37,531 nt of DNA from Gammaproteobacteria bacterium (lineage in GTDB: Bacteria; Pseudomonadota; Gammaproteobacteria; GRL18), in assembly GCA_027071355.1 (NCBI GenBank), contig JALSUJ010000193.1, positions 1 through 37,531 of the forward strand, read 5' to 3'. The notes beneath the pieces were generated by a model. It did not search any database, was not told where the DNA came from, and was given only the letters and a program-made list of their open reading frames with translations. The first letter of the stretch is position 1; every line of letters starts with the position of its first letter. Position numbers and translations under genes: made by a program. Shown here in pieces: positions 2,101-36,300 of the stretch.

Positions 2101-2129
2101 TTGAAATCTTATAAGCATGAATGTATAAT
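2101..2129 (+). promoter_or_regulatory. Predicted sigma70 promoter of the recG-like gene
   Basis: TTGAAA (2101-2106), a 17-bp spacer and a perfect TATAAT (2124-2129) form a strong consensus promoter. A long A-rich tract (about 2029-2066) lies upstream. The predicted transcript start near 2136 is only a few bases before ATG 2139, so the message would be essentially leaderless if translation starts there. Confidence 0.6.
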
Positions 2130-2130
2130 A
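2114..2130 (+). repeat. 17-bp element, copy 2 (candidate Tus operator/Ter-like site)
   Basis: This is an exact second copy of AGCATGAATGTATAATA, inverted relative to copy 1 (1903-1919). It is preceded by ATA, giving ATAAGCATG against ATAAGTATG in E. coli TerB. It contains the -10 box of the recG-like promoter. Because both copies carry the promoter -10 boxes, one regulator could silence both genes together. Confidence 0.5.
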
Positions 2131-2138
2131 ATTATATT

Positions 2139-4076
2139 ATGAATACAAAAGAAACCCTTTCCAGGGAAGTCCGGCCATCCCTCGGGCGGCTCAAGGCACT
2201 GGGGCCCCAGCAGTTCGATCAACTGGCATTTCTGGTACCGCGTGACTACGAGGACATTGCCTTGCCGGTAGTCGATTTTGCCACCCTGGTAACACATGCC
2301 ATTGGCACAGAAATACTCACGGTCGAAGGTCGTCTGTTTCAGACACCGGTCAAACACTGGGGCAAGATTCCATCATTGACCTTGATGCTGGTCGATGACC
2401 GTGGCTACAGTCTGAATGTCTGTATTTTTGGCAATACCCAGTCACTACAACGAACATTAAACCCCGGTAAACGCTACTGCTTTCGCGGTAAACTCACCTG
2501 CTTTCAGCAAACGCTGCAACTGAGTGGTGGCGAGTGGATACCTGAAGAATGGATCGGTCGGGTGCGACCACGCTATCCGGGTAAAAGCGGTTATCTCAAC
2601 GCCGAGACGGTGGCCCGGAAAATGACCGAATACCTGCCGCTGGCAATACCGCTTGCCTGTGCGTTTTTACGACGGCAGCTGCGCATAAAAAACCCCTTGC
2701 AGGAACAGCAGCGTTTACACCGTTACGCTATTGCCTTTTCCACCCTGGAGGCTGTTTTTCATGCCGTACATACCCCCGAAACCCGCGATCAGGGCATCCG
2801 GGCCCGCCATGCCCTGTTAGTATTATCCGCCCATTATCGTGTAGCACAAATCGGTCAGCAATCGTCGCCAGCACCGGCTAATTGCCGACCAAATGTAATG
2901 CAATTACCTGCGCTGATGGCGCAACTGCCATTCACCTTAACCGGCGAACAACAGCAGATTGTTCGTGAACTTTACCATCGCATGAACCAGCCAAATGCCT
3001 TGCGGCACATGCTGATGGGCGATACCGGTAGCGGGAAAACTGTCTGCTACGCCATGGCGGTTGCCGGTATCATCGAGGCCGGCGGTTTTTGTGCGATCAT
3101 CTTGCCATCAACCAGCCTGGCCCGGCAGATTGCGGCGGATTTTCAGCAATGGTTTCCGGCTATGCCAGTGCAATTAGTTGTTGCCGGTGAAAAATATCAA
3201 TGGCCACAAAACCCGTCAGCACCGGCAGAAGTTCATATCGGAACCACCGCGCTGTTGCACAACAACCCGTGCCGCTACGCCCTGGTCGTCGTGGATGAAC
3301 AACACAAGCTGGGAACAAAACAACGTCAGCAGCTGCTCACACAGACGCATCTGCTGGAAGTAACTGCCTCACCGATTCCACGTTCAACGGCATTACTCAA
3401 ACTGGGTGTGATGTCGGTATCACTGATTCGTCACTGCCACGTTCAGCGTTCGATTACGACGCGTTTATACGAAGCATCAGCGCGACAAACGCTGTTTCAA
3501 AAAATCATTGAGACAGTAAACCGGCAGGAAAAAGTCCTTATCCTCTATCCGCAGATCGGTGAGAGTGAAGCGGAGAACAAAAAAGCACTGGCCTCCGCAG
3601 CCGGCCACTGGGAAAACCATTTTCCAGGTCAGGTCTGTCAGGCGCATGGTCACCTGACTGAAAAGGAAAAACAGACCGCCATTGAGACATTCAAGCAAAA
3701 TCAGGCCAGTATTCTGATTGCAACCACGGTGGTTGAATGTGGCATGAACATCCCGGGGTTGACGCTCATCGTTGTAATTAACCCAGAGAAGTTTGGATTG
3801 AGTACGCTTTACCAGGTCAGAGGGCGTTTGTGCCGGGAAGGAGGGAGTGGCGAATGCTGTTTGTTTGCAGACAAACCCCTTGCGGAGAAAACCCGTGCAC
3901 GTCTGCAGGCTTTGATTGATGCCAGAAATGGTGATCAACTGGCGCAGGCAGAATTACAACTGCGCGGGGCAGGGCAATTGCAGGAGGGCGTTGAGCAGTC
4001 CGGTCACCATGATTGCCTGGTGTACGGGTTTAGTGACCAGCTGGCACTGGAAGCTATTTTGCATCAGAAAATTTGA
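2139..4076 (+). CDS. recG: RecG-like ATP-dependent DNA helicase (plasmid-encoded)
   Basis: This superfamily-2 helicase of about 645 residues (E. coli RecG is 693) has all the core RecG motifs. The N-terminus LKALGPQQFDQLAFLVPRDY resembles the start of the RecG wedge region. Walker A is MGDTGSGKT (about residue 300), motif II is DEQH (about 390), and motif III is TASPIPRST. Motifs V and VI are ATTVVECGMNIPG and YQVRGRLCREG. The end (AELQLRGAGQLQEGVEQSG) matches the RecG C-terminal helical hook. RecG remodels stalled forks and R-loops and limits over-replication where forks meet. Its position beside a Tus-like gene and the origin suggests plasmid fork processing. A frame upstream starts at 2121, but that ATG overlaps the -10 box, so 2139 is preferred. 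No clear Shine-Dalgarno is seen for either. Confidence 0.85.
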   Translation: MNTKETLSREVRPSLGRLKALGPQQFDQLAFLVPRDYEDIALPVVDFATLVTHAIGTEILTVEGRLFQTPVKHWGKIPSLTLMLVDDRGYSLNVCIFGNTQSLQRTLNPGKRYCFRGKLTCFQQTLQLSGGEWIPEEWIGRVRPRYPGKSGYLNAETVARKMTEYLPLAIPLACAFLRRQLRIKNPLQEQQRLHRYAIAFSTLEAVFHAVHTPETRDQGIRARHALLVLSAHYRVAQIGQQSSPAPANCRPNVMQLPALMAQLPFTLTGEQQQIVRELYHRMNQPNALRHMLMGDTGSGKTVCYAMAVAGIIEAGGFCAIILPSTSLARQIAADFQQWFPAMPVQLVVAGEKYQWPQNPSAPAEVHIGTTALLHNNPCRYALVVVDEQHKLGTKQRQQLLTQTHLLEVTASPIPRSTALLKLGVMSVSLIRHCHVQRSITTRLYEASARQTLFQKIIETVNRQEKVLILYPQIGESEAENKKALASAAGHWENHFPGQVCQAHGHLTEKEKQTAIETFKQNQASILIATTVVECGMNIPGLTLIVVINPEKFGLSTLYQVRGRLCREGGSGECCLFADKPLAEKTRARLQALIDARNGDQLAQAELQLRGAGQLQEGVEQSGHHDCLVYGFSDQLALEAILHQKI

Positions 4077-4188: not shown

Positions 4189-4240
4189 ATAATTAGGGAG
4201 GCCAAAAAACACTAGATAAAACAATAAGATACAGAGGCAA

Positions 4241-4344
4241 CCTACACTAAAAATGTGCAAAACCTACACTAAAAATGTGCAAAACCTACACCAAAAATGT
4301 GCAGACCTACACCAAAAATGTGCAGACCTACACCAAAAATGTGC
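4241..4344 (+). repeat. Iteron cluster 1: five direct repeats
   Basis: The 18-bp unit CCTACACCAAAAATGTGC starts at 4241, 4263, 4285, 4306 and 4327. The first two copies have T for C at the eighth base. Spacing is 22, 22, 21 and 21 bp, about two helical turns, so bound Rep monomers would lie on one face of the DNA. Confidence 0.9.
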
Positions 4345-4489
4345 ACCATAAATAATCATCTAAATTAGCATCAATTGAACAATTAATAACCAAAAATAGC
4401 GTTATTTACCCTGAAATCGTCGCAATCACGGCGTTATAGAGTCATTTATCACCTGGAACAAGGGGGAAATCCTATTATTTTGTAGAACA

Positions 4490-4528
4490 CCTACACCAAA
4501 AATGTGCAGACCTACACCAAAAATGTGC
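4490..4528 (+). repeat. Iteron cluster 2: two direct repeats next to rep
   Basis: Two further exact copies of CCTACACCAAAAATGTGC start at 4490 and 4511 (21-bp spacing), separated from cluster 1 by about 145 bp. Their place just upstream of the rep promoter suggests autoregulation of rep or handcuffing with cluster 1. Confidence 0.9.
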
Positions 4529-4556
4529 AAAAAGGGCTTTTTGGGATAAAAAAGTG

Positions 4557-12231: not shown

Positions 12232-12328
12232 CAGTATTTGTGTTTTTTTAAGATGTTATGCTTTGGCATAGATAAAATTTTATCCGGTTGGCAATACAAT
12301 AATTATGGAGATCGGTCAAAGAGCCGTC

Positions 12329-15300
12329 ATGAAAAAAATGAAGCTTACTCGACAAACTGTTACCACCTTGTTTTTTTTATGTTTTTCGCTGTTTACAACA
12401 CTTGCCCAGGCGGTTCCTTTAAACATTTTTCAAAACATAAATACTGACTATACTAACCCAACCCCGAATCGCCGTTGGCACGGGACTACATTAGGTGTTT
12501 CACCAACAGGTAATCCTGGCTCCTATATAACCCCAGGCACATTTACGCTTACCGGCGCAATCTTTGATTCACCGGCTTTAGGGTCAAAAACCGTTCGGTA
12601 TTTAAAGTTTACTGTACAAACCGCCAGGACTTATGCTTATGATATTAATGATTTTGGCAATGGCAATACCTGTCATCTACCGGCCGGACAGACAACCTGT
12701 GTTCTCGATATCGGAACCAGTCAGGCGTTTCCCACGGACCCGAGCGGTTTTTCTGACGGTTATGTTGTGTTTAAAACCGGATCGAGCAGTGACGTTGGAC
12801 TTTACTTTGTTAATATGTCAGTCTCGCCAACGCTGGTTTCACAGGCTATTACAGGGAAACAACTGACTGTTAAGATCAATACAACATCAAGCAGTCGATA
12901 TCAGATCCAGCCGGCAATTAGCACCGGCGCTGCAACCGCCACGACGAATACAATTATTCAGTTACAGTCACCAGACTGCAGCGTTAATTATAATACCCCA
13001 CCAACCATTACCCGTGCCGGGAGTGTTGCCAGTCTGGCATTTGATCTGTCCGGGATCACCGTTCCAATGGGTCAGCCCAGTTGTACACTAAACTGGTCTT
13101 ACGATGAAGTCCTGTTTAAAGGGCATGTTAGCGGGTCTATCACTTACCAGGTTCTTGACAAAACGCCGCCTGTCATTCACTTAAACGGAACATCGCCTGG
13201 TTTATTGAGCAGCTTTATTCCGGTCATTACTGACGACCATGATCCGGCACCGGTTATAACTGGCGCAACGATTTCCGGCGGACCAGCTGGCTTAACCCCA
13301 ACACCTTTAACCCTGAGCGGTGGACAAAACGGGGCACCTTACGCCTTGAGCAGTGCAACAGCTTATATCGGTGCCGGCTTTGTTATTCATCTGACAGGTA
13401 AGGATAAATCAGGTAATGTTGCCAACTTTGCATCGCAGCCCATCACGATCACCTTACCGGATACGCAACCACCGGTCATCAGTGTTAAAGTAAACGGTCA
13501 GATAGTTCAGGCAAACAGTGCTGGCAAAATCACGGATTTTACCGTTTCAGTAAGCGATAACACCGATCCCAACCCTACAATCACCTCGGTCACCCTGGCT
13601 GACGGACCAGCTGCCATGGGACAAACACCCCTGACACTGGTTACAGGCACCAACGGTAATAGTACATTACCCGCCATGGCTGTCACACCCGGTACCGGTT
13701 ATACCTTAACAATCCATGCACAGGATATAATGGGTAACAAGGCAAGCTACACGCAGTTGATAACGATTGATAACGTGCCGCCCGTTATTAGCTTTACCGG
13801 TACATCCCCGGCTGTTTTAGGCGCATTTGTTCCGGCAATAACGGATAATCTTGATCCACATCCGGTTATAACCGGCGCAACCATTTCCGGCGGACCGTCA
13901 TCCATTGTTTCGTTACCCTTAACCCTTCACGGCGGTACCGGCGGTACGCCTTATTCTTTAAGCAGTACCACGAATTTAATGGGGTCAGGATTTACTATCC
14001 ATCTGACGGGTAAAGATAATGCGGGCAATACCGCAACATACACAACGCAACCGATTACCCTCAGCCTGCCGGATAATACCCCACCGGTTATTGACGTGAA
14101 GAAAAACGGACGTTCTATTACCGCAAATACAGCCGGGAAGATCACAAATTTCACTGTCTCTGTCACCGACAATATTGATCCGAACCCGACGATTACCTCA
14201 GCAACCCTGTCAGGCGGACCAGCTGCCATGGCAGTTACCCCGTTAACGCTCGTTAAAACCCAAACAGGTTATATGTTGCCTGCCATGGCAGTTACACCTG
14301 GCAACGGTTATACATTAACGATCAATGCACAAGATATAATGGGTAATAAGGTAACCTATTCACAAACCATAACCCTTGATGATGTCCCGCCGGTTATAAC
14401 GTTGGCCGGTACATCACCGGCTGTTCTGGGTGCTTATGTGCCCACCATAACCGATAATGTGGACACCAACCCGACGATTACATCAGCAACCATTTCCGGT
14501 GGGCCGTCATCAATAACCTCTGCAGCGCTAACCTTAACGGGTGGTACCGGTGGGGTTCCTTATTCTTTAAGTAGTTCCAGTAATTTGATGGGTGCAGGCT
14601 TCGTTATTCATTTGACGGGTAAAGACAAAGCGGGTAATACAACCACGTTTACGTCATTGCCCGTTACGATCAGTTTGCCGGACAGTACCCCACCGGTTAT
14701 TGACGTGAAGAAAAACGGACAGTCTATTACCGCAAATACAGCTGGCAAAATCACGGATTTTACTATTTCTGTAAAAGACAATATTGACCCCAACCCGACG
14801 ATTACCTCAGCAACCCTGTCAGGCGGGCCAGCTGCCATGGCAGTTACCCCGTTAACGCTCGTTAAAACCCAAACAGGTTATACCTTGCCTGCGTTGACCG
14901 TTACTGCTGGAAGTGGCTACATCCTGACCGTAAAGGCACAGGATATGTCAGGAAACAAAACAAGCTATACCCAGTCGATAACAATCGATAACACACCACC
15001 AACAACACAATTACTATACAAGGGCGTGCCATTACCTCAGTCAGGTTCACAGACTTTGGTGTGTCCAACAACCTTTCAACCACAATCTCTGGCCATTAAA
15101 GTCAGCGATGACACTGACCCGGTGCCGGTGATACAAGTAACATTAACGGATGGCAGCAACAACAGCTACCCGGTTTCAACACAGTGGGACAGTGTATTGA
15201 AGCAGTATTTGCTGAAATTTACGGTACCGGACGGCGTTCTGACAATGCATGTGCAAGCGCGTGATGCTTCGGGCAAAGTGACTCAAAATCTTTACACAAT

Positions 15301-18300
15301 TGCCTGTGATACACACGGGCCGGCAATAACCCTGACAACAAACGGGAAGCCTTTTGTAAACGGGGCCGCTATTGCAGCATTCAGCGCTTTAAACCTTAAT
15401 GTTAATGATGCACTAAGCTCTAGCGTCCACCTGGATCCTGTTGTTATTACTTCGCCATCATTGGCTACACCGATAACAGTGAACGCCACATCAGGCACTA
15501 CAAACCCTTTGGTTACACCGCTTAGTATTGGTAGTCCACTAGCCGAATCGGTATCAACCAGCGTGCCGTATACATTAACGGTCAGCGCAACAGATACGCT
15601 GGGCAATAAAACCCAGAAAACGATAACTTTCTATATTGATCATTCTGCACCAACAATTCAGCTGAATATAAAAAATAATGGCAATACCTGGGTTAACGGT
15701 GATCCGGTTGCCGCGTTGAGTCAACTGGTGTATCAGGTTAGTGATACTTTTGATAAAAACGCAAAAGTTACAAACGTAAATATCACCGGTGGGCCGACAA
15801 ATGTAAACACACCTGTTGGGCTATTGCCGTCAACAACCGGAACCAGCATGCAGGACATGAGTCTATTTCCGTCAAATGGAACCCTGTACACATTAACGGC
15901 AACGGCAACAGATGCTGCTGGCAACACAACAACCATTACGAGCACACTGAATTATTCACCGACGAATGTTCCCCTGTTTGGCCATGCTAATTCAGATATT
16001 TACGTGCCGGCTTTAACCCGTACCTTTATTGATAATGCAGGACACCCGGCACTTTATACAGATCCTGTTACTTATAGCAACGGAAGTGTGTATACCGGCA
16101 CGTCACAATTAACCGCGTATTCTGCGAGCAACTCAACTGTTCCTGTAGTAATAGGCGGGAAAACCATCGCGCCAGGCCAAAGCGTGGTTATTAATCCGGC
16201 GTATGATTTCAGCAAAACAGCAGGAAGCATTAGTCTCCCGGTTCATACCGTCAAAGACGGCGATGAAGGGGTAGCGAACATCACTATTAAAACCGGGGTG
16301 GCTAATACCAGTATCTTCTCAACCAAAATTACAACCTGGTCATCCCATGTAACCCTTGCGGCTGATAACTGGACGGTACAACAGTTTTTAGGAAACATTA
16401 ATATTCGTGTTTTGATAGACAAAAAAACCATGTGTCGGGTCACGACAAATGTTGATGTGGCAAAAGCGGGTGATATTTATGCTGATCCGGTATGCCTGAT
16501 AAAATTTGATACAAAGCCTGCAACAACGCATGTGATAAACAAACCAGATGTAAAACTGGTTGGAACATCAAGTATTCTTGGTAAAAACAAGATATCGTAT
16601 AGCGTTTATCTCTATGAAGGAAGTAGTCAGATACTACTGAGTACAGGAACAAATTTTATCCAGGTTAACGCTTTAACATTAAATTATGATCTTGTTCTAC
16701 CTGCAGGCAATATCAGGCAGAATATTCAGTCTATCAACACAACGCTGAGATTAGTTTCAGGTGATACCTGTAAATTAACAATGAGTCCTGCTAGAGCAAA
16801 AGCAACCGTTCAACCAGGACGAAAAAAACAATGTCTGGTTGAATGGCTTAATTTGCCACCTGGCCTTTCTCAGCGAAATTATGTTTCAGCACCAAACCTG
16901 ATCGGGAGATTAACAACTTTAGGTGCAAATAAAATCGCCTGGCGAATAAGCCTGTTTAAAGATAATGGCTCAAAAACCGTTGTTTCAACGGGACAAAGGA
17001 TAACAAACGTTACCGCACCACAACCGCCTCAACTAACCATAAAATCTTTATCAAGTTTATCGATGGCAGGTAATGACTATATTACAACCACAGATGGTGG
17101 AAATATAGCGAAAGCTGATTATTATGCACCTGCGGGAGACTTGTTAGTTACAACAAGTATTGATGGTGTGGTGAGTAGTGTGCGTGCAGTAGGCTCAAGG
17201 ACAGGACGCGCAACACAAGGCTGGTTGTTAGTAAGAAACACTAAAACAGCTTTGTGGTCGAGCCACACTTATAAAATAAAGGTTGCCTATAAATATATGC
17301 CGCAACTTTTTATAGAAAAAACCATTACATCGAAGACAGCGCCCTCGTTACGTCTTGCGCTAAAATTATCGCAATCAACGCATACAAGAACAGTTATAAG
17401 TACAGACATTCAGCATTTCACTGTTAATCTGACAACCGCCTACTCAAGAATTAACAATTATGACAAAACAACAATGGGTGCATGGAACGTATATATCGGA
17501 AACCTGCAGCCTGATGGGACGGTTCATTCCCTAACACCAACAGTTCCATTAGCAATTGATACCCCCTTTGATGTTGATCTAACGGGTATAACACAAGCCA
17601 ACCTGGTTGCAGTGGCAACACTGAACAGTCAAGTACCAGGCTACGCACGAACAATAAAATCAAGAAGAATTAGTTTAAGGGTTCTGCAAGGACGCGGGAT
17701 TCATGGAACCATTGAATCAAGAAAAATAAGTGGTAGCGCACCTTTAAGAACAGTGCTTTATATACGGACAAGCCGCGATGCGTATTATCAAGTTGATAAG
17801 GTAGACTGGTATGTTTCACAGGATGCCGGCTTGACTTATACCAAAGCGATAAACCCTGCTCGTAATACACGTTCTTTTTATCATGTGTTCCCGCTGGGTG
17901 AATATAAGGTCAAAGCCGTAATCTTTAATAAAAACACAGGCGCAACTTATGAAACACCGCCGGTTAATATCATCGCTTATCATCGCCCCGAATTTGAAAT
18001 CAGGGGTGCGTTAAACGACTATATAGGCACGCCTCGACCAATCTTTGTTTATGATAAAGATCCAGGTGTATTGGCTAACGCATCCACGGCACTAACAACA
18101 GAGATGGCGACATTATCAACAACCTGCCAGTCACCACAGTTTGATTGTACGCCGAACACAGGCTGGTACTGGAAATTAAAAAATGACGAGACTAATGCTA
18201 ATGAATCAATGATTAACAATATATATGAATATTCGATTGATAATGGAAAAATCTGGCATCCGATGAATGGCTCGTTTACCCCATCGGCTACGCAAACTGC

Positions 18301-19459
18301 CTCAAAAGGATACATATACATAATGATACGCGGACGCAGCAAAAAAGCACCCGCAACGGACCGATACGCCTATACAACAAAAAGAACACGAATACATGTA
18401 ATAGCAATGAATAAAATTCGTGCTTATATTTATGTACCACGACGGATGGAGGCAGGAAAGAGTTATGTTATAAGAGGAATCAGGAGATCGCAACAAAATA
18501 TGTTATTGCCAGAGAAAAACTCATGGATATTGCCAGACGGAACCACCGTTGACGGCACTCTGAATTTGCATTACACACCAACAATCGCGGATGTAACAAA
18601 AGGCAGCGCACTCTTTCAGTTTAACCCAGGCTATTACGGAGGGTCTGCTTTTGATGCGGCACAAGGACATGCAACATCAACCGCTATGATATGGAAATAC
18701 ACCTTCCCAACCTTTATAATGAGTGTATATAAAAAAGTGGATTACGCACCCACCATTATCACTTTTATTGTTAAACAAGGAGTGAAAAGATATGCAGTTG
18801 ATGGTTTAAATATAAACTGGTTGTTACCATCAGGAGTCACAGTAAAACAAAGCGGATACGACAGAAGATCGCTCTATTTTGATAAAGCAGGTACCTACTC
18901 CATAAAGGCCAATATAAGCGATGCTAGAGGCAATGCTGTTACCTTGACAAAAACGGTTACGTTAGGAAGTATGCCACCATTTAATATATCTATAAGGGTG
19001 CTTGGTCCTACTAAGCACTACGCGCCTTATTATGTAAGCTTTAGGCCCACCATAACAGGCGGACATATCTACGACAGGATTACAAGTATAGATACTTATC
19101 TTGATGGAGTAAAACGAAGTAATAGTCGTAATATAATACTTAATCAAGGAACGCATAACATTAAATTCGTAATCAAATCACGTATGGGTGTTACTCAGTC
19201 CAAAACCATAACGATGGTTATTCTTCCACCACAGGCACCAATATGTACGCTACATACTTATAATAGTGGAGCATACATTATGCTACAACCTTATTGTCAA
19301 GATCCAAAACGATTACGACTCTCTTATGAATGGTATATAAACAATGTTTTTGTATCAACGAACAATAAATTATTAACCCAAAAAACAAATAAAACAAAAG
19401 TTACATTACGTGTTAAAAACAGCGCAGGTGTATACATAAAAAATGATATAAATTGGTAA
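12329..19459 (+). CDS. Giant secreted protein with tandem Ig-like/PKD-like repeats
   Basis: This protein of about 2,376 residues starts with a signal peptide (MKKMKLTRQTVTTLFFLC, with cleavage expected after TTLAQA). An N-terminal region of about 270 residues is followed by three ~203-residue composite repeats (13160-15000). Each contains a GTSPAVLGAFVPAITDN-type half and a VKKNGQSITANTAGKI-type half, with TGKDKAGNT and ISGGPSS motifs typical of bacterial Ig-like folds. More Ig-like repeats follow to about 15960, and PKD-like domains lie near the C-terminus. No autotransporter, sortase or membrane anchor is seen. Large Ig-like proteins on IncHI1 plasmids (R27 RSP) are secreted and influence conjugation, so a surface or mating role is likely. 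ATG 12305 is an alternative start. Confidence 0.85.
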   Translation: MKKMKLTRQTVTTLFFLCFSLFTTLAQAVPLNIFQNINTDYTNPTPNRRWHGTTLGVSPTGNPGSYITPGTFTLTGAIFDSPALGSKTVRYLKFTVQTARTYAYDINDFGNGNTCHLPAGQTTCVLDIGTSQAFPTDPSGFSDGYVVFKTGSSSDVGLYFVNMSVSPTLVSQAITGKQLTVKINTTSSSRYQIQPAISTGAATATTNTIIQLQSPDCSVNYNTPPTITRAGSVASLAFDLSGITVPMGQPSCTLNWSYDEVLFKGHVSGSITYQVLDKTPPVIHLNGTSPGLLSSFIPVITDDHDPAPVITGATISGGPAGLTPTPLTLSGGQNGAPYALSSATAYIGAGFVIHLTGKDKSGNVANFASQPITITLPDTQPPVISVKVNGQIVQANSAGKITDFTVSVSDNTDPNPTITSVTLADGPAAMGQTPLTLVTGTNGNSTLPAMAVTPGTGYTLTIHAQDIMGNKASYTQLITIDNVPPVISFTGTSPAVLGAFVPAITDNLDPHPVITGATISGGPSSIVSLPLTLHGGTGGTPYSLSSTTNLMGSGFTIHLTGKDNAGNTATYTTQPITLSLPDNTPPVIDVKKNGRSITANTAGKITNFTVSVTDNIDPNPTITSATLSGGPAAMAVTPLTLVKTQTGYMLPAMAVTPGNGYTLTINAQDIMGNKVTYSQTITLDDVPPVITLAGTSPAVLGAYVPTITDNVDTNPTITSATISGGPSSITSAALTLTGGTGGVPYSLSSSSNLMGAGFVIHLTGKDKAGNTTTFTSLPVTISLPDSTPPVIDVKKNGQSITANTAGKITDFTISVKDNIDPNPTITSATLSGGPAAMAVTPLTLVKTQTGYTLPALTVTAGSGYILTVKAQDMSGNKTSYTQSITIDNTPPTTQLLYKGVPLPQSGSQTLVCPTTFQPQSLAIKVSDDTDPVPVIQVTLTDGSNNSYPVSTQWDSVLKQYLLKFTVPDGVLTMHVQARDASGKVTQNLYTIACDTHGPAITLTTNGKPFVNGAAIAAFSALNLNVNDALSSSVHLDPVVITSPSLATPITVNATSGTTNPLVTPLSIGSPLAESVSTSVPYTLTVSATDTLGNKTQKTITFYIDHSAPTIQLNIKNNGNTWVNGDPVAALSQLVYQVSDTFDKNAKVTNVNITGGPTNVNTPVGLLPSTTGTSMQDMSLFPSNGTLYTLTATATDAAGNTTTITSTLNYSPTNVPLFGHANSDIYVPALTRTFIDNAGHPALYTDPVTYSNGSVYTGTSQLTAYSASNSTVPVVIGGKTIAPGQSVVINPAYDFSKTAGSISLPVHTVKDGDEGVANITIKTGVANTSIFSTKITTWSSHVTLAADNWTVQQFLGNINIRVLIDKKTMCRVTTNVDVAKAGDIYADPVCLIKFDTKPATTHVINKPDVKLVGTSSILGKNKISYSVYLYEGSSQILLSTGTNFIQVNALTLNYDLVLPAGNIRQNIQSINTTLRLVSGDTCKLTMSPARAKATVQPGRKKQCLVEWLNLPPGLSQRNYVSAPNLIGRLTTLGANKIAWRISLFKDNGSKTVVSTGQRITNVTAPQPPQLTIKSLSSLSMAGNDYITTTDGGNIAKADYYAPAGDLLVTTSIDGVVSSVRAVGSRTGRATQGWLLVRNTKTALWSSHTYKIKVAYKYMPQLFIEKTITSKTAPSLRLALKLSQSTHTRTVISTDIQHFTVNLTTAYSRINNYDKTTMGAWNVYIGNLQPDGTVHSLTPTVPLAIDTPFDVDLTGITQANLVAVATLNSQVPGYARTIKSRRISLRVLQGRGIHGTIESRKISGSAPLRTVLYIRTSRDAYYQVDKVDWYVSQDAGLTYTKAINPARNTRSFYHVFPLGEYKVKAVIFNKNTGATYETPPVNIIAYHRPEFEIRGALNDYIGTPRPIFVYDKDPGVLANASTALTTEMATLSTTCQSPQFDCTPNTGWYWKLKNDETNANESMINNIYEYSIDNGKIWHPMNGSFTPSATQTASKGYIYIMIRGRSKKAPATDRYAYTTKRTRIHVIAMNKIRAYIYVPRRMEAGKSYVIRGIRRSQQNMLLPEKNSWILPDGTTVDGTLNLHYTPTIADVTKGSALFQFNPGYYGGSAFDAAQGHATSTAMIWKYTFPTFIMSVYKKVDYAPTIITFIVKQGVKRYAVDGLNINWLLPSGVTVKQSGYDRRSLYFDKAGTYSIKANISDARGNAVTLTKTVTLGSMPPFNISIRVLGPTKHYAPYYVSFRPTITGGHIYDRITSIDTYLDGVKRSNSRNIILNQGTHNIKFVIKSRMGVTQSKTITMVILPPQAPICTLHTYNSGAYIMLQPYCQDPKRLRLSYEWYINNVFVSTNNKLLTQKTNKTKVTLRVKNSAGVYIKNDINW
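13160..15000 (+). repeat. Three composite 609-bp (203-codon) coding repeats
   Basis: Units begin near 13160, 13774 and 14384. Parts of the second and third are nearly identical: the stretch starting CCCCACCGGTTATTGACG at 14079 recurs at 14688, 609 bp later and in frame. The first unit is more diverged, so units two and three reflect a recent duplication or gene conversion. Confidence 0.8.
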
Positions 19460-23168: not shown

Positions 23169-23184
23169 TTTTCTCCAACTTTCT

Positions 23185-23214
23185 TTGAAAGTGATAAAAA
23201 ACACCCACCTTCAG
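23185..23214 (+). promoter_or_regulatory. Dyad element D upstream of dsbC
   Basis: The element is TTGAAAGT, a 12-bp spacer (GATAAAAAACAC), then CCACCTTCAG. TACAAT (23240-23245) lies 26 bp after its end and only 7 bp before the dsbC start, so the message would have almost no leader. There is no clear -35 box: the -35 position holds GACATT right after the dyad, as expected of an activator-dependent promoter. Confidence 0.6.
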
Positions 23215-23251
23215 GGACATTTTTAATTTTTATTACAGGTACAATACTGAC

Positions 23252-23941: not shown

Positions 23942-24506
23942 GTTTATTGCGCTCATTGTTGTTGTTCTGTCTATAAGTGGATGTGCTTCGTTAGGTATTG
24001 GTGCGGATAATTATTCCTGTAAAGGCTACCCGAATCATCCTGGCTGTCTATCATCACGCGAGGTTTATAAGCAGACGAATTATCGGGATACGCTTTTTAG
24101 TGAAGACGATTATACCCATCATAAAAAACAGCAGGACACAAAAAAACCAACCGCCGATGACACAACAAACGATGACTTTGCGAATGATGATGATAATGAT
24201 TATTTTGATGACCAGCGTAATCCGACAAAGCAGGTAAACATATCAAAGAGTAAAAAGAATAACCTTCATGAAAAAAACAAAACGGTGTTAGGGCAGAACC
24301 GTTACATCCCAAGAATGATAGACGGCGTATTACCCGTGCGCACGCAGGCTAAAGTGATGCGAATATGGATCGCACCCTGGGAAGATGATGAAGATGCTTT
24401 TCATTCACCGGGTCTGGTCTATCAGGAAATTGAAAAACGCCACTGGTCATTGGGTGACTCTAATCATACGAGGACAAGGTATTTCAGCCCATTAAGCAGA
24501 CAATAA
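23934..24506 (+). CDS. traV: TraV, outer-membrane lipoprotein of the channel core
   Basis: This 190-residue lipoprotein has the signal MNKFIALIVVVLSISGCAS with lipobox SGC. The TraV cysteine motif follows directly (YSCKGYPNHPGCLSSREVY). The middle is acidic and disordered, with runs of D and N (about 55-100). The C-terminal part (PVRTQAKVMRIWIAPWED) is typical of TraV. It anchors the TraK-TraB core to the outer membrane. The gene overlaps dsbC. Confidence 0.88.
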   Translation: MNKFIALIVVVLSISGCASLGIGADNYSCKGYPNHPGCLSSREVYKQTNYRDTLFSEDDYTHHKKQQDTKKPTADDTTNDDFANDDDNDYFDDQRNPTKQVNISKSKKNNLHEKNKTVLGQNRYIPRMIDGVLPVRTQAKVMRIWIAPWEDDEDAFHSPGLVYQEIEKRHWSLGDSNHTRTRYFSPLSRQ

Positions 24507-24606
24507 AAGCATTCAAGAATATTGCAAGCCAGCATGACCGACAGGTGCGCAATTGGAAAACTATCAGGAACTGAGTCAAAAATATCTATCTATAAAGGTA
24601 ATTAAA

Positions 24607-24936
24607 ATGTTTAAATTCAATAAAAAATCAATAATGAAAACCCTGCTGGTTCTTTTAACATTCGGTGCTGTTGGTGCAGTATTTGCATCTTCACTTCCTG
24701 CATCTGCTACTCCCGCTACTGATTTCCAAACTGTATTGAACACAATTACAGGGTGGACAGAAGGTACGCTTGGTCAGTCTATTGCTGTGACCATGGTATT
24801 GGTTGGTTTAATTGGGGGTATTGCACGCCAAAGTCTGTTTGCTGCCGTTGTTGGTATTGGTGGTGGTATGGCGCTGGCGTATGCCCCAAGTATAATCGGA
24901 ACCGTGTTCACTGCAGGATTACCTGTAACACTATAA
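24607..24936 (+). CDS. traA: TraA-type pilin precursor
   Basis: This 109-residue protein has a leader peptide (about 1-35, MFKFNKKSIMKTLLVLL and an alanine-rich end) and a mature part of about 70 residues with two hydrophobic helices (SIAVTMVLVGLIGG and FAAVVGIGGGMALAYAP). A short positive loop between them contains ARQ. This matches F-type pilins. ATG 24607 has AAAGGTAA upstream, whereas the frame open from 24553 has no such signal. It is followed immediately by a strong terminator, which would stabilise a highly expressed pilin message. The 100 bp before it hold no other feature I can name. Confidence 0.82.
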   Translation: MFKFNKKSIMKTLLVLLTFGAVGAVFASSLPASATPATDFQTVLNTITGWTEGTLGQSIAVTMVLVGLIGGIARQSLFAAVVGIGGGMALAYAPSIIGTVFTAGLPVTL

Positions 24937-24957
24937 GTCAATATAGCAATAAAAAAA

Positions 24958-24980
24958 GCGGCCATACGGCCGCTTTTTTT
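24958..24980 (+). terminator. Rho-independent terminator after traA
   Basis: GCGGCC, loop ATAC, then GGCCGC, followed by seven T residues. The perfect six-base GC stem is the clearest terminator in the window, and it separates the dsbC-traV-traA unit from the traC unit. Confidence 0.92.
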
Positions 24981-24989
24981 GCTTTTTCT

Positions 24990-25018
24990 CTAAAGGTTAA
25001 AAAAAAGGGCACTTTCAG
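24990..25018 (+). promoter_or_regulatory. Dyad element E upstream of the mini-traC/traC unit
   Basis: The element is CTAAAGGT, an 11-bp spacer (TAAAAAAAAGG), then GCACTTTCAG, the same length as A and B. TAGGAT lies 26 bp after its end. Placed directly after the traA terminator, it should restart transcription for traC and downstream genes. It has a T-tract after it, so it could in principle also terminate, but a far stronger terminator stands 10 bp upstream. Confidence 0.55.
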
Positions 25019-25090
25019 TGCTTTTTTTTTATTGCACAATTGATAGGATAACCATTAAATATTGTTGTAGATATTTAAGAGGAAGCAATA

Positions 25091-25324
25091 ATGCAATTTT
25101 TAAATCGTGCTGGCCAACCGATAAATATAGATTTGTTCGACTCAGGTATAAATCACCACATTATTTTTACTGCTCAGTCAGTACCGGGTAAATCTTTTAT
25201 GGCAGATGACTGGACACAAAAAGCAGGAATTATAGACGAAGGATGGAGCTACCTTAAACCGTCAGAAGCTATTGACTGTGACCCAGAAAAAGAAAATATA
25301 AATATTATAACGAGAGAAAAATAA
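25091..25324 (+). CDS. Small traC-like protein: diverged partial duplicate of the TraC Walker-A segment
   Basis: The 77-residue product begins MQFLNRAGQPINIDLFDSG and continues to AQSVPGKSFMADD. This follows TraC from residue 415 (MQFVSRTGQLMNMDLFDSG, then AQSGSGKSFMTND). About a dozen residues are then missing, and the similarity resumes at WSYLKPSEAID (TraC RSYLKLSESID). The lysine-serine of the nucleotide loop is kept but the glycine pattern is damaged. It has its own ribosome binding site (AGAGG, about 8 bp before ATG), and its TAA overlaps the traC start (TAATG). It may be a decaying duplication, a leader cistron for traC, or a small modulator of TraC assembly. Confidence 0.65.
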   Translation: MQFLNRAGQPINIDLFDSGINHHIIFTAQSVPGKSFMADDWTQKAGIIDEGWSYLKPSEAIDCDPEKENINIITREK

Positions 25325-27717
25325 TGCATTTAGCTTCCGCCCCATCGTTATTTAGTGAGTTAGCGTATGATTTTAACAATCACCTTTTTTATCTTGAAGA
25401 GGATGAGAAAAGCAGTCATTTGGGGTTTGGTTATGTTTTTCCACCGATGCCAGGCTGTGATCATTTAACGACTGACAAACTTAGTGTTCTTTTTAACCAG
25501 AGCTTTCCGGATAATACCTTACTGCAAATCAGTTTATGGTCATCACCGGACCTTACTGAACCAATAAACAGGATACTTGCGCTGCGTAGTGAGGCAACCG
25601 GTGTCTTTAAAACCTTTACCGAAGAGAAAGTAGCTTACTTATATAATGCAATCAGTCATGAGCTCGACACGATCAGCGAACTAAAGCTTCGTGACATCCA
25701 ATGTATTTTAACTGTCAAAGTACCTGTTAAAGCGAATTTTACTGAGATTGATAAAGAGAATATAAATAGGCTCCGTTTAAATACCGAGCAAATATTAAAA
25801 ACCACCGGTATTTATGGGCAGCCCTTAACGCCTAATAAGCATCTTCGTATGATGGAGACAATCTTTAACTGGTCGGCAGATGCTTCCTGGCGAATAACAC
25901 CGTCTGATACGCATTATGATCCAACCATGATTATGGCAGATCAAATGATGGATCTTTCCACAATGCTTGAGATTAAAGCGGACGGGTTAAAAGTCAAAGA
26001 TAAATATATTCATATATTATCCCCGAAACGATACCCGGAATATATAACAACCGGCATGGCTATGCGTTATGCGGGAGATTATGAACAGGGATCGCGGGGA
26101 TTACGGGAGCCCTTTCTGATTACAGCTAGTCTGTATTTTCCCGCTGCCGAGAAAGTCAGGCAAAAACTGGAATTAAAAAGACAGTTTATAACCAAGCAGG
26201 CGCATGGACCCCTACTCGATTTTGTTCCGCGAATGGCTGTACAAAAACATGATATGGATGATTTTTTTGAGGCATTGGACAAAGGAGATCGTCCCTGTAA
26301 ATTCATGCTAACGTTTGCTGTTTTTGGTGACAAAAAAAGAAAGGCAGATGCCGCAGCCGCCAATATGAAAACCTACTTTCAGGAATTAGGTTTTACCCTA
26401 ATGGAAGACGCTTATTTTTGTAAGCCGCTTTTTCTAAATATGCTACCGTTTGGTGCGGACCCAAAACTCATTCGTGATGTTGTGCGCTATAAAACAATGG
26501 CAACGAATCATGCGGCACGCATGGTGCCGATGATGGCTGACTGGAAGGGAACCGGCAATGCCGCTATGCAGTTCGTTAGTCGTACCGGTCAGCTAATGAA
26601 TATGGATCTGTTTGATTCAGGCACAAACTACAACGCTATCATTGCTGCGCAGTCTGGTTCCGGTAAGTCATTTATGACAAATGACATTATTATGTCCTAT
26701 TTATCAATGGGCGCAAAAATATGGACCATAGACGTCGGACGGAGCTACCTTAAACTGTCAGAATCTATTGATGGTGTTTTTATGGCATTTGCACCTGAAA
26801 GTAATATCTGTCTTAATCCTTTTGATATTATTAAAGATTACTCAGAGGTCTCTGATGTTCTGGTTGGCTTGATTTCAGCGATGGCCGCGCAACACAAGCC
26901 ATTGTCCGATCTACAGGAGCAACAGCTTCGTAAGACATTAAAAGAGCAATGGGATATTCATAAAAATGCATTGACCATTGATATCATCTCCGAAACGCTG
27001 ATAGATCACCAGGACAGACGTATACAGGATATTGGAAATCAGCTTTATTCCTTTACCAGTAAAGGCGAGTACGGACGCTATTTCTCAGGTAAAAACAACA
27101 TAAATCTCGATAATCCTTTTACTGTACTGGAACTGGAAGAGTTAAAAGGAAGAAAGCATTTACAGCAGGTTGTGTTATTACAGCTTATCTATCAGATTCA
27201 GCAGGAAATGTACCTGGGAGAACTTGACAGGCCAAAAATATTAATTATTGATGAAGCCTGGGCGTTATTAACAGAAGGCGCGATAGGCAAGTTTATTGAA
27301 GATTCCTATCGACGAGTACGAAAATACGGGGGGGCCGTCATCGTTGTTACGCAGAGTGTGAACGATTTATATCAATCTTCAGGGGGGGCAGCCATCGTTG
27401 AAAACTCAGCAAATATGTATTTATTACGACAAAAAGCTGAAGTCATAGAAGCGATGAAAAGAGAAAAAAAATTACCGGTACATGAAGGGGGGTACGATCT
27501 GATAAAAAGCGTACATACCAACCCTGGACGGTATTCGGAAATATTCTTTATGACAGAAATGGGGGCAGGTATAGGCCGGTTGTACGTCAATCGGTTTTGT
27601 CAGCTGCTTTATTCAACAAAATCCCAGGAAGTTTATGCTCTTCAACAGATACGCAAAGAAAATAACTGCTCGATTGAAGTAGCAATTAATGAATATATCC
27701 GCCGGGAGAGTAAATAG
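25324..27717 (+). CDS. traC: TraC, VirB4-like secretion ATPase
   Basis: This 797-residue protein has an N-terminal TraC domain (about 20-410) and the ATPase domain, with Walker A AAQSGSGKSF at about 441-450, Walker B ILIIDEAWALL at about 640 and RRVRKYGGAVIVVTQS following. The length is right for F-type TraC (F TraC is 799). It powers pilus assembly at the cytoplasmic base of the channel. Its start overlaps the stop of the mini-traC gene, and its stop overlaps trbI, so translation is probably coupled throughout. Confidence 0.92.
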   Translation: MHLASAPSLFSELAYDFNNHLFYLEEDEKSSHLGFGYVFPPMPGCDHLTTDKLSVLFNQSFPDNTLLQISLWSSPDLTEPINRILALRSEATGVFKTFTEEKVAYLYNAISHELDTISELKLRDIQCILTVKVPVKANFTEIDKENINRLRLNTEQILKTTGIYGQPLTPNKHLRMMETIFNWSADASWRITPSDTHYDPTMIMADQMMDLSTMLEIKADGLKVKDKYIHILSPKRYPEYITTGMAMRYAGDYEQGSRGLREPFLITASLYFPAAEKVRQKLELKRQFITKQAHGPLLDFVPRMAVQKHDMDDFFEALDKGDRPCKFMLTFAVFGDKKRKADAAAANMKTYFQELGFTLMEDAYFCKPLFLNMLPFGADPKLIRDVVRYKTMATNHAARMVPMMADWKGTGNAAMQFVSRTGQLMNMDLFDSGTNYNAIIAAQSGSGKSFMTNDIIMSYLSMGAKIWTIDVGRSYLKLSESIDGVFMAFAPESNICLNPFDIIKDYSEVSDVLVGLISAMAAQHKPLSDLQEQQLRKTLKEQWDIHKNALTIDIISETLIDHQDRRIQDIGNQLYSFTSKGEYGRYFSGKNNINLDNPFTVLELEELKGRKHLQQVVLLQLIYQIQQEMYLGELDRPKILIIDEAWALLTEGAIGKFIEDSYRRVRKYGGAVIVVTQSVNDLYQSSGGAAIVENSANMYLLRQKAEVIEAMKREKKLPVHEGGYDLIKSVHTNPGRYSEIFFMTEMGAGIGRLYVNRFCQLLYSTKSQEVYALQQIRKENNCSIEVAINEYIRRESK

Positions 27718-34208: not shown

Positions 34209-35192
34209 ATGAAACTTTATTTATGTTTACCCGTCATTTTATCGTTGCTGGCCGGTTGTGCGGCAAATGCCCCGCGTCAGTACGACCCCTTGCACAGCGA
34301 GGCGTACAATATTGCGCGGGCGGATGGTTTGACCCTGGGACGTACCGATGATATTCATGATGTGCCTTACAGCAAAATCAAGGAAGCAACTAAAAACGTT
34401 GGACCTAATCATACCGGAACAGTATTAGGTCTGGCTTCCTCTGCCAGCGATTTTGCCAACCTGTCAACCCCACCACCGGGGTTCTCCAGCGCCATGAGTG
34501 GAACATTCTTTTTGCTGGGTGCATTGCTGAATACAGGGCATTACCCGCGTGCATTAGGGGGACATGTGATTGCCTGGATGCCGGCGGATATTGTCAAGGA
34601 CAAAGCGCATCCCAACCTGACCATGAAAGCCATCTACAAAAAGGCCGTCTGGGATGCGTTAAAAGCAAACGGTTATACCATCGAACAGAAACCGCGTCAT
34701 AGAAATGGCTATCATTTTATACGCTATGTGTTAACCGGGCATAATTGCAATCCGGATAAAGTGGCTGCGTATGCGAAAAAACATGATTTTTATAACACAA
34801 AATACGAGTGTGAGCTGAGTATTAATTTCAATGGTGGCATTGATAATGAACCTGACCTGGTATGGCCGCCTGCGTGGATAGGCAAGAAAAAAAGATATTA
34901 TTACGGTAGCGGTGAAAAAGATCCTGGTATTGGGTATGCTATTAGAATTATTAGTATTGAACCAGACACATATGACAGTAAATATATTGACCTAATAAAC
35001 TTTGAAAAGGTCAACATTCAGTTATCAATGAACTTGCCAGATTGGTTTTATCTTTATTGGCCACCAAATCCTAAACGTCCTTACCCAGTCATTCTAAACA
35101 AGGACAGGGTGCTGTATTTTATACAGCCTGACCCAAAGAAAAAGCATGCGTCACCCCCGGTGCCAACGACCGAGAGCGCCGCATTAAAATAA
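34209..35192 (+). CDS. Lipoprotein of unknown function downstream of traN
   Basis: This 327-residue lipoprotein has the signal MKLYLCLPVILSLLAGCAAN with lipobox AGC. The mature protein has no recognised domain. It shows a glycine- and serine-rich hydrophobic stretch (about 75-105), two cysteines (GHNCNPDK and KYECEL) that may pair, and a proline-rich C-terminus. It has its own strong promoter and GGAGA ribosome binding site, so it may be expressed independently of the tra operon, for example as a surface or exclusion function. That is context only. Confidence 0.65.
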   Translation: MKLYLCLPVILSLLAGCAANAPRQYDPLHSEAYNIARADGLTLGRTDDIHDVPYSKIKEATKNVGPNHTGTVLGLASSASDFANLSTPPPGFSSAMSGTFFLLGALLNTGHYPRALGGHVIAWMPADIVKDKAHPNLTMKAIYKKAVWDALKANGYTIEQKPRHRNGYHFIRYVLTGHNCNPDKVAAYAKKHDFYNTKYECELSINFNGGIDNEPDLVWPPAWIGKKKRYYYGSGEKDPGIGYAIRIISIEPDTYDSKYIDLINFEKVNIQLSMNLPDWFYLYWPPNPKRPYPVILNKDRVLYFIQPDPKKKHASPPVPTTESAALK

Positions 35193-35292: not shown

Positions 35293-36300
35293 ATGAACGA
35301 CGAAAACAACAAAACCGTTGAGCCTAACGCCACCGAGGCGTTAATCAAAACACTGGAACGCTCACAGCAATTGGAGCAAAACCGCATCAATCAGGACGAA
35401 AAAAACCTGAAATGGGGAAAATTGAAATTTTATTTGATTGTGGCCTTTTTTGCACTCGGTGCATTACCCTATATGGGCGCTATGTATAAGATATTTGGTG
35501 AAAACAACACAACCAAGAATGACTATGTGGATGCTGTTAAATTAGACGGTCCGATTGAGCCAGGTGAAAAAAATAGTGCAGAAAAAATAAATCAGGCACT
35601 GGATACTGCCTTTAATGATAAAAAGGCCAAAGGAATTGTCTTCCTGGTCAATAGCCCCGGTGGAACACCCGTGCAGGCAGCGCTTATTGCTGATTACATC
35701 AAGATGCTAAGGAAAGAACATCCCAAGAAAAAGATCATAACGGTTGCTGAGGATGTTATGGCCAGTGGTGCATATATGGCGGCTATGGGTACGCATACGA
35801 TATACGCACATAAATCCAGTATTGTTGGATCGATCGGTGTCGTAACAGAAAGTTTTGGCTATCCAAAAATAATGAAAAAAATAGGACTGGAGCGACGAGT
35901 GCATGTTTCGGGTAAATACAAACGCAGCCTGGACCCTTATTTTCCAGAAAAACCGGAAGACGTAAAAATTATGCAAAAACGCCTGGATGATGTTCATAAT
36001 CAATTTATTACTATTGTGAAGAAATCACGCGGTAACCGGCTTAAAGCCTCGGATGATGTGCTTTTTAACGCGGAAGTCTGGACGGGTGATGAAGCACTCA
36101 AATTAGGCTTAATTGATGGACTGGGATCCATTGACAGCATTATCCGAAAAGAATTTGGCGTGAAATATTATAAAGTTGTGACCGAACCTGTACCGTTCAT
36201 AGACCAATTTACAAAATCGATTCGTAAGCAAGTTTCATTGCTGTATCAGAAAATACTGACATCAAATTCTTCAGGCAATATGGAGGCAATTTTAAAATGA
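35293..36300 (+). CDS. S49-family (SppA/SohB-like) membrane serine protease
   Basis: This 335-residue protein has a cytoplasmic head (1-44), one membrane segment (about 45-64) and an S49 domain. The nucleophile motif is VMASGAYMAA with Ser158. The general-base lysine is probably Lys210 in GKYKRSLDPYF. The oxyanion-region VNSPGGTP and the SSIVGSIGVV strand are present. S49 enzymes cleave membrane-associated peptides and proteins. Similar genes occur within transfer regions of large MOB-H plasmids. The substrate here is unknown, and the adjacent lipoproteins or residual signal peptides are candidates. It overlaps the next gene by 4 bp. Confidence 0.88.
   Translation: MNDENNKTVEPNATEALIKTLERSQQLEQNRINQDEKNLKWGKLKFYLIVAFFALGALPYMGAMYKIFGENNTTKNDYVDAVKLDGPIEPGEKNSAEKINQALDTAFNDKKAKGIVFLVNSPGGTPVQAALIADYIKMLRKEHPKKKIITVAEDVMASGAYMAAMGTHTIYAHKSSIVGSIGVVTESFGYPKIMKKIGLERRVHVSGKYKRSLDPYFPEKPEDVKIMQKRLDDVHNQFITIVKKSRGNRLKASDDVLFNAEVWTGDEALKLGLIDGLGSIDSIIRKEFGVKYYKVVTEPVPFIDQFTKSIRKQVSLLYQKILTSNSSGNMEAILK

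Follow-up and report, generated by a model that had tools for sequence, protein, structure and literature searches.

The window, by which we mean the whole 37,531-nt stretch analyzed here, is one contig (C193) of a draft genome of 4.17 Mb in 696 contigs. It carries a conjugative element with genes for a Rep3-type initiator, a TraI_2 relaxase, a coupling protein, TraE, TraK, TraB, a DsbC-like protein, TraV, a pilin-like protein, TraC, TraW/TrbC, and TraU, several of these assignments scoring below the curated NCBIfam cut-offs. The gene order is traB-dsbC-traV-traA-small ORF-traC, with dsbC placed between traB and traV. The traA stop lies at 24936 and the traC start at 25324, and the interval between them holds a terminator-like hairpin, which sets the traA side apart from what follows, and a small open reading frame (ORF) that runs into traC. 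The features of this interval and of traC are as follows:

24950-24981, plus strand: terminator-like hairpin with a T tail, downstream of traA (14 pairs, 4-nt loop)
25077-25084, plus strand: Shine-Dalgarno-like AAGAGGAA of the small ORF (duplex energy with the anti-Shine-Dalgarno −6.0 kcal/mol)
25081-25101, plus strand: left arm of a long-range stem predicted to form with the start of traC, also an imperfect inverted repeat (RNA prediction)
25087-25098, plus strand: direct repeat AATAATGCAATT, copy 1, at the small ORF start (repeat search)
25091-25324, plus strand: small ORF, 77 codons, ATG to TAA, a partial, decayed traC copy (homology)
25091-25210, plus strand: 5' block, homologous to traC codons 415-454 at 26566-26685 (alignment)
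25211-25222, plus strand: 12 bases out of frame relative to traC, flanked by a 22-bp deletion and a 1-bp insertion (alignment)
25224-25275, plus strand: 3' block, traC homology reaching 26771, silent differences unusually few (alignment)
25317-25338, plus strand: right arm of the same stem, at the start of traC (RNA prediction)
25320-25331, plus strand: direct repeat AATAATGCATTT, copy 2, at the traC start (repeat search)
25324-27717, plus strand: traC, encoding a full-length F-type TraC ATPase of 797 aa (NCBIfam TraC 656 bits, cut-off 567)
26566-26771, plus strand: the traC segment resembled by the small ORF, codons 415-483 with Walker A (alignment, own-genome search)

An earlier, sequence-only reading had described the small ORF as an open frame with a ribosome binding site, exact coupling to traC, and a promoter element of its own. 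The frame and the binding site were borne out, and the small ORF stop does overlap the traC start in a TAATG at 25322-25326. The promoter element was not recovered: a sigma-70 scan of 24600-25700 returned one site, on the opposite strand, against 3.0 expected.

Elsewhere in the window, short direct repeats at 4237-4532 lie just 5' of the Rep3-type initiator gene and by position may be iteron-like, and a RecG-like helicase gene (2121-4076; well under the RecG family cut-offs) lies near the same initiator. Within the transfer region, 12305-19459 encodes a 2384-residue protein with internal repeats, 13511-14283 matching 14123-14892 at 76.8% DNA identity over ~780 bp.

A partial copy of traC

The small ORF and traC share a common origin, as had been proposed: their DNA local alignment scored 70.5 against a maximum of 21 among 200 codon shuffles, and their protein alignment scored 152 against a maximum of 50 among 500 shuffles. 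When the genome was searched with the small ORF, codons 415-483 of traC were its single partner. Upstream of the small ORF ATG no significant homology was found (p 0.29), so the match begins at that ATG, which corresponds to Met415 of TraC, and the small ORF tail past traC codon ~483 matched traC no better than chance (p 0.45). The extent given previously, from about 415 to 500, is therefore right at its start and too long at its detectable end. The internal gap is likewise present but costs a net 7 codons, not about a dozen; it consists of a 22-bp deletion after Walker A, 12 bases (25211-25222) that are identical to traC at 10/12 positions when shifted and at 5/12 in frame, and then a 1-bp insertion, absent which the frame would stop after 47 codons.

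The small ORF and TraC were compared with a family consensus of 41 distinct TraC segments, drawn from 90 loci with a long enough match. Among the 62 residue pairs, 36 are identical and 26 different; four of the 62 (ORF residues 41-44) lie in the out-of-frame stretch and so lack true residue homology. Of the 26 positions that differ, TraC has the consensus residue at 19 and the small ORF at none, and 11 of the 36 common residues depart from the consensus in both. The 11 derived residues in common, together with the 0/26 of the small ORF, indicate that the copy arose inside this TraC lineage; as judged from these alignments, most of the amino-acid change fell on the small ORF side. Two of the changes, G445V in Walker A and N437H, affect positions invariant in 41/41 distinct homologues, and the Walker A motif reads SVPGKS in the small ORF against SGSGKS in TraC, as noted earlier.

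Much of the ATPase is missing from the product. Part of the helix after Walker A is deleted, the homology does not extend past about codon 483, and most of the ATPase domain is absent, including Walker B; the IIDEAW motif of TraC, which we take to be Walker B, lies at about codons 641-646, outside the copied segment. The small ORF fails the F-type TraC architecture (TraC_F_IV plus P-loop TraG), scoring 19.1 bits with NCBIfam TraC against the cut-off of 567. A Pfam search with it gave zero matches, a PDB sequence search gave chance-level matches only, and a structure model built from the single sequence had a mean pLDDT of 41.3 and no confident fold. At the sequence level these changes rule out a normal P-loop, and in that role the segment looks free of constraint. 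The small ORF almost certainly cannot work as a motor, and it is very unlikely that its peptide acts as a P-loop module. By its alignment it is a truncated partial duplicate clearly descended from the nearby intact gene traC.

The two start regions have a 12-nt direct repeat in common, AATAATGCA(A/T)TT, and the region of traC codon 415 reads ATGCAGTTC. The similarity of the two start contexts was significant with the start codons included (p 0.0012) and was not significant upstream alone (p 0.22), so homology of the two ribosome binding site regions is suggestive only. A second traC scrap is found on another contig of the same genome (C241; L033:4680-5027, minus strand), where codons 507-593 are present at 95% DNA identity in an open frame with a short tandem duplication inside, beside a TnpB-like gene (TnpB named by eye); fragment copies of this traC thus do arise in this genome. 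Other segments of the window also recur in the genome. A 40-bp stretch between traB and dsbC (23176-23215) is repeated exactly on C241 (25833-25872), with weaker matches on contigs C571 and C212, and 34281-34535, inside the gene at 34209-35192, has a 69% DNA match to C486:5912-6166.

Relatives and the place ahead of traC

The TraC of the window is isolated, its nearest relatives outside its own genome being 47-50% identical. Megablast of 24500-27717 against plasmids gave no match, and no TraC above ~50% identity was found in plasmids among the best 5000 records. TraC-derived patterns matched four stretches in genome contigs, none of them a relative, and none in viral contigs, while aligning TraC to genome contigs led us to keep 80 loci of 100 encoding a relative, the best at ~49-50%. 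Searches of 144 genomes of relatives, 369 of the class (with an E-value limit of 1e-150), and 24 of the order returned no TraC above 47% outside the window's own genome; among the 24 genomes of the order only that genome has TraC, and one other shows a 24% match.

Searches for the small ORF itself gave the same picture. As a query against plasmids it matched 963 records, all below 60% identity, the 20 matches listed being traC genes; against viral contigs it matched nothing, and against phages it gave three weak matches (E 0.1-0.5). The DNA of 24937-25330 had no match in plasmids. Among 112 loci matching the ATPase segment, own genome included and most of them taken with flanks of at most 3 kb, a second copy of the segment occurred only in loci covering the window; one further locus (L011) holds two neighboring pieces of one gene and is not a counterpart. 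In the tree, the window TraC stands beside that of G112 (support 95/90), both on long branches. In G112, 18 nt separate the end of traA from traC, and no ORF lies in them; the small ORF is thus absent from the nearest relative, yet at 47% identity this refutes little.

The sequence-only reading had taken the small ORF to be preserved and suggested looking for the same small gene ahead of traC in related plasmids and comparing synonymous with non-synonymous change. No such gene was found, the nearest TraC being only 47-49% identical, and plasmids, genome contigs, viral contigs, and the searched genomes held no close relative for a dN/dS comparison. With no relative close enough, no counterpart locus, and an openness that is only mildly unexpected under neutrality (below), the claim of preservation was left unsupported.

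The place itself is often filled. We surveyed 89 loci in 26 clusters at ~85% (4 more were unusable), with frames called mechanically, and in 14 of the 26 cluster representatives an upstream frame has its stop −9 to +11 nt from the start of traC. Most frames ending at the traC start are DsbC-like. SXT/R391 elements resemble the window in that the gene before traC ends on the latter's start codon (TTAATG in the dsbC-traC cluster, representative L055), and differ in that this first cistron is dsbC, for a thiol-disulphide protein, whereas in the window dsbC lies between traB and traV and a traC fragment stands there instead. In these elements the regulator SetCD binds upstream of dsbC, and traLEKBVA and dsbC/traC/trhF/traWUN are given as separate sets (PMC4344509).

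A second occupant is a small RRXRR gene, found ahead of traC at 25 loci in methanotroph conjugative elements (two were checked against Pfam PF14239). All 23 loci scored with the order traB-dsbC-traV-traA-X-traC, L103 and L104 included, carry it as X. The likeness to the window is close, with a small gene between traA and traC at the traC start and the same gene order, but the protein is unrelated and is found at 25 loci, whereas the traC scrap is seen only in this genome. The RRXRR protein stands alone (e.g., L088:2726-2977 and L035:3287-3472), has a core around LNPCHPARAR, and overlaps or adjoins the traC start; it presumably resembles the front part of IscB-type proteins. We also considered whether codons 63-77, the small ORF tail, could be what is left of an earlier RRXRR leader's end and dropped this idea because RRXRR tails are not conserved; the letters GQPIN, common to RRXRR and the small ORF, were put down to chance, since at that point the DNA aligns with traC.

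Since a closely packed gene is often found ahead of traC in relatives, the small ORF sits in a commonly filled place. Close packing is usual in operons, so the pattern fits coupling and does not show it. That unrelated genes take the slot ahead of traC in different lineages is a testable pattern.

Start signals, a predicted RNA stem, and possible coupling

The Shine-Dalgarno energy of the small ORF is better than that of traC (−3.0 kcal/mol), although a similarly weak signal is not peculiar to traC: the gene at 35293 has the same −3.0 and no such leader. In RNA predictions the two start regions pair with each other, the stem counting 19.4-20.1 expected pairs in each of 6 contexts. At −18.0 kcal/mol their duplex is the strongest of 15 neighboring start pairs (others −1.8 to −15.2), and among 1377 windows 0.07% pair as well with the left arm and 0.65% as well with the right. 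Of 19 gene starts compared, that of traC is predicted to be the least accessible (0.30 unpaired); with the upstream RNA cleared the value rises to 0.56, and 2 of 150 random sites gain as much or more. The whole 361-nt leader folds like its shuffles (z 0.31), and the pairing comes partly from the self-complementary ATGCAT and from A/T runs. The two arms were also considered as the terminal inverted repeats of a small mobile element; this was rejected, as the two-arm pattern matches nowhere else in the genome.

The reading that we favor, at about an even chance, is that the small ORF is a decayed partial traC duplicate whose translation, rather than its product, may matter through coupling to traC. 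A partial duplication of the element's own traC would have yielded a fragment starting at the internal Met codon 415, and the ATGCA-TT that the traC start and codon 415 have in common may have helped to join this fragment to a start codon and ribosome binding site, the remnant staying in front of traC. The peptide most likely has no function of its own. From its better ribosome binding site the small ORF would be translated as the first cistron before traC, and its ribosomes would melt the mRNA stem that joins the start regions and finish at TAATG, on the start codon of traC; stem opening and termination together would couple traC translation to the small ORF. Selection, if any, would keep the frame open and ending at traC and would not act on the amino-acid sequence. 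Coupling is thus a prediction from sequence, and the small ORF as a translated leader is plausible, a pure relic being nearly as likely. A translational leader was the better of the two functions suggested earlier: the predicted stem, the stronger Shine-Dalgarno, and the coupled position in relatives all fit it. If coupling is true, a pseudogene fragment has gained a regulatory role, controlling translation of its own parent gene.

A more specific form, which we regard as unlikely, is a start-to-start RNA clamp, created when a partial traC duplication put a start region complementary to that of traC 233 nt upstream of it, by which traC synthesis would depend on translating a relic of its own P-loop segment. 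Were it correct, a gene would be regulated through a scrap of itself at a place where relatives have dsbC or an RRXRR gene.

The nearest known case of a short leader cistron with the downstream start in a predicted stem is dba-dsbI of Campylobacter jejuni, in which mutants showed that the next gene is made only if the short first cistron is translated, and the downstream ribosome binding site is predicted to be hidden in an mRNA stem opened by upstream ribosomes (PMC3167755). For the small ORF and traC the corresponding arrangement is a prediction only. The cases also differ in that dba is not described as a copy of dsbI and lies 11 bp from it, whereas the small ORF copies traC and overlaps it. 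Our literature search, with partial coverage and few subscription journals, returned no title on a traC fragment preceding traC, and we claim no absence from print.

Drift, constraint, and competing histories

The main competitor is a neutral traC fragment without effect on traC, its frame open by chance and its TAATG derived from the ancestral traC start context; we see this as a serious possibility, somewhat short of even. It had been argued that a random duplicate would gather stops. This is too strong: in simulations that covered substitutions and excluded indels, neutral 77-codon copies were stop-free with a frequency of 0.144 at t = 0.3 and 0.072 at t = 0.5, and with such 7-14% survival the openness of the small ORF is mildly, not strikingly, unexpected. 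Across 59 comparable codons the small ORF and traC differ by 15 silent and 24 replacement differences. With traC omega set at 0.03 or 0.08, the best ORF omega was ~0.45, at which 25-28% of runs fell near the observed counts; values of ~0.3-0.8 were compatible, and omega 1 was not rejected, with 9-11% of runs near the counts at t = 0.3. As there were 300 runs per cell and one substitution model, these simulations rank omegas and do not provide a sharp test. The open C241 scrap in the same genome and the lack of a small ORF counterpart anywhere else also favor a neutral relic. Against it stand the two compensating indels that restore the frame, the better Shine-Dalgarno together with the predicted start-to-start stem, and a deficit of change at invariant TraC positions: at positions conserved in at least 95%, 3 of 17 are changed in the small ORF, compared with 23 of 45 others (Fisher p 0.022), one of the three (G463) falling in the out-of-frame stretch. 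This deficit hints at some protein-level constraint during part of the history of the copy and is left unexplained by the coupled-leader reading. The mean entropy of changed positions was not clearly higher (permutation p 0.10).

VirB4b of Rickettsia is a related case, also a duplicate of a VirB4/TraC-family ATPase gene with a damaged nucleotide-binding site. It is a diverged VirB4 duplicate with altered NTP-binding residues, judged a pseudogene or neofunctionalised, and every sequenced Rickettsia has it, at full length (810 aa) (PMC2653234); the small ORF, by contrast, is a 77-codon scrap in one genome. Should the small ORF be a relic and nothing more, duplication and decay would have left an ordinary mark in a conjugative element, and the case would warn against inferring function from short open frames.

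Constraint could also have been inherited. The fragment may have sat for most of its history inside a second full-length traC, in tandem or on a second element, and been cut down only recently, a history that would account for the mismatches by codon position in the 5' block (11, 5, 20), the fewer changes at invariant positions, and the 12-nt direct repeat at the two starts. We consider it improbable: the changes at strongly conserved residues and the frameshifted stretch also call for a long time without constraint, the upstream leaders by themselves show no significant likeness, and the contig has no further trace of a second traC.

The dominant modulator suggested earlier, a functional peptide resembling TraC that enters or poisons its hexamers, would draw on the open frame, the 14 of 17 TraC-invariant residues kept, and the protein-like mismatches of the 5' block, but it has very little chance, given that simulation yields the same third-position excess when traC is constrained while the copy drifts, and that the peptide has lost the Walker A glycine, Walker B, most of the ATPase domain, and part of a helix, carries a frameshifted stretch, has no confident fold, and was found nowhere else (plasmids, viral contigs, phages, loci with the segment).

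Later exchange with the parent gene may also have occurred. Degenerate codons encoding the same residue in the small ORF and in traC differ in 14 of 22 cases within the 5' block and in 1 of 11 within the 3' block (Fisher p 0.0038, with the block boundary picked after looking at the data), and a codon-permutation test of the low-mismatch stretch gave p 0.05-0.22 depending on window size. A later, possibly recent, gene conversion of 25224-25275 by traC is a possible source of this pattern.
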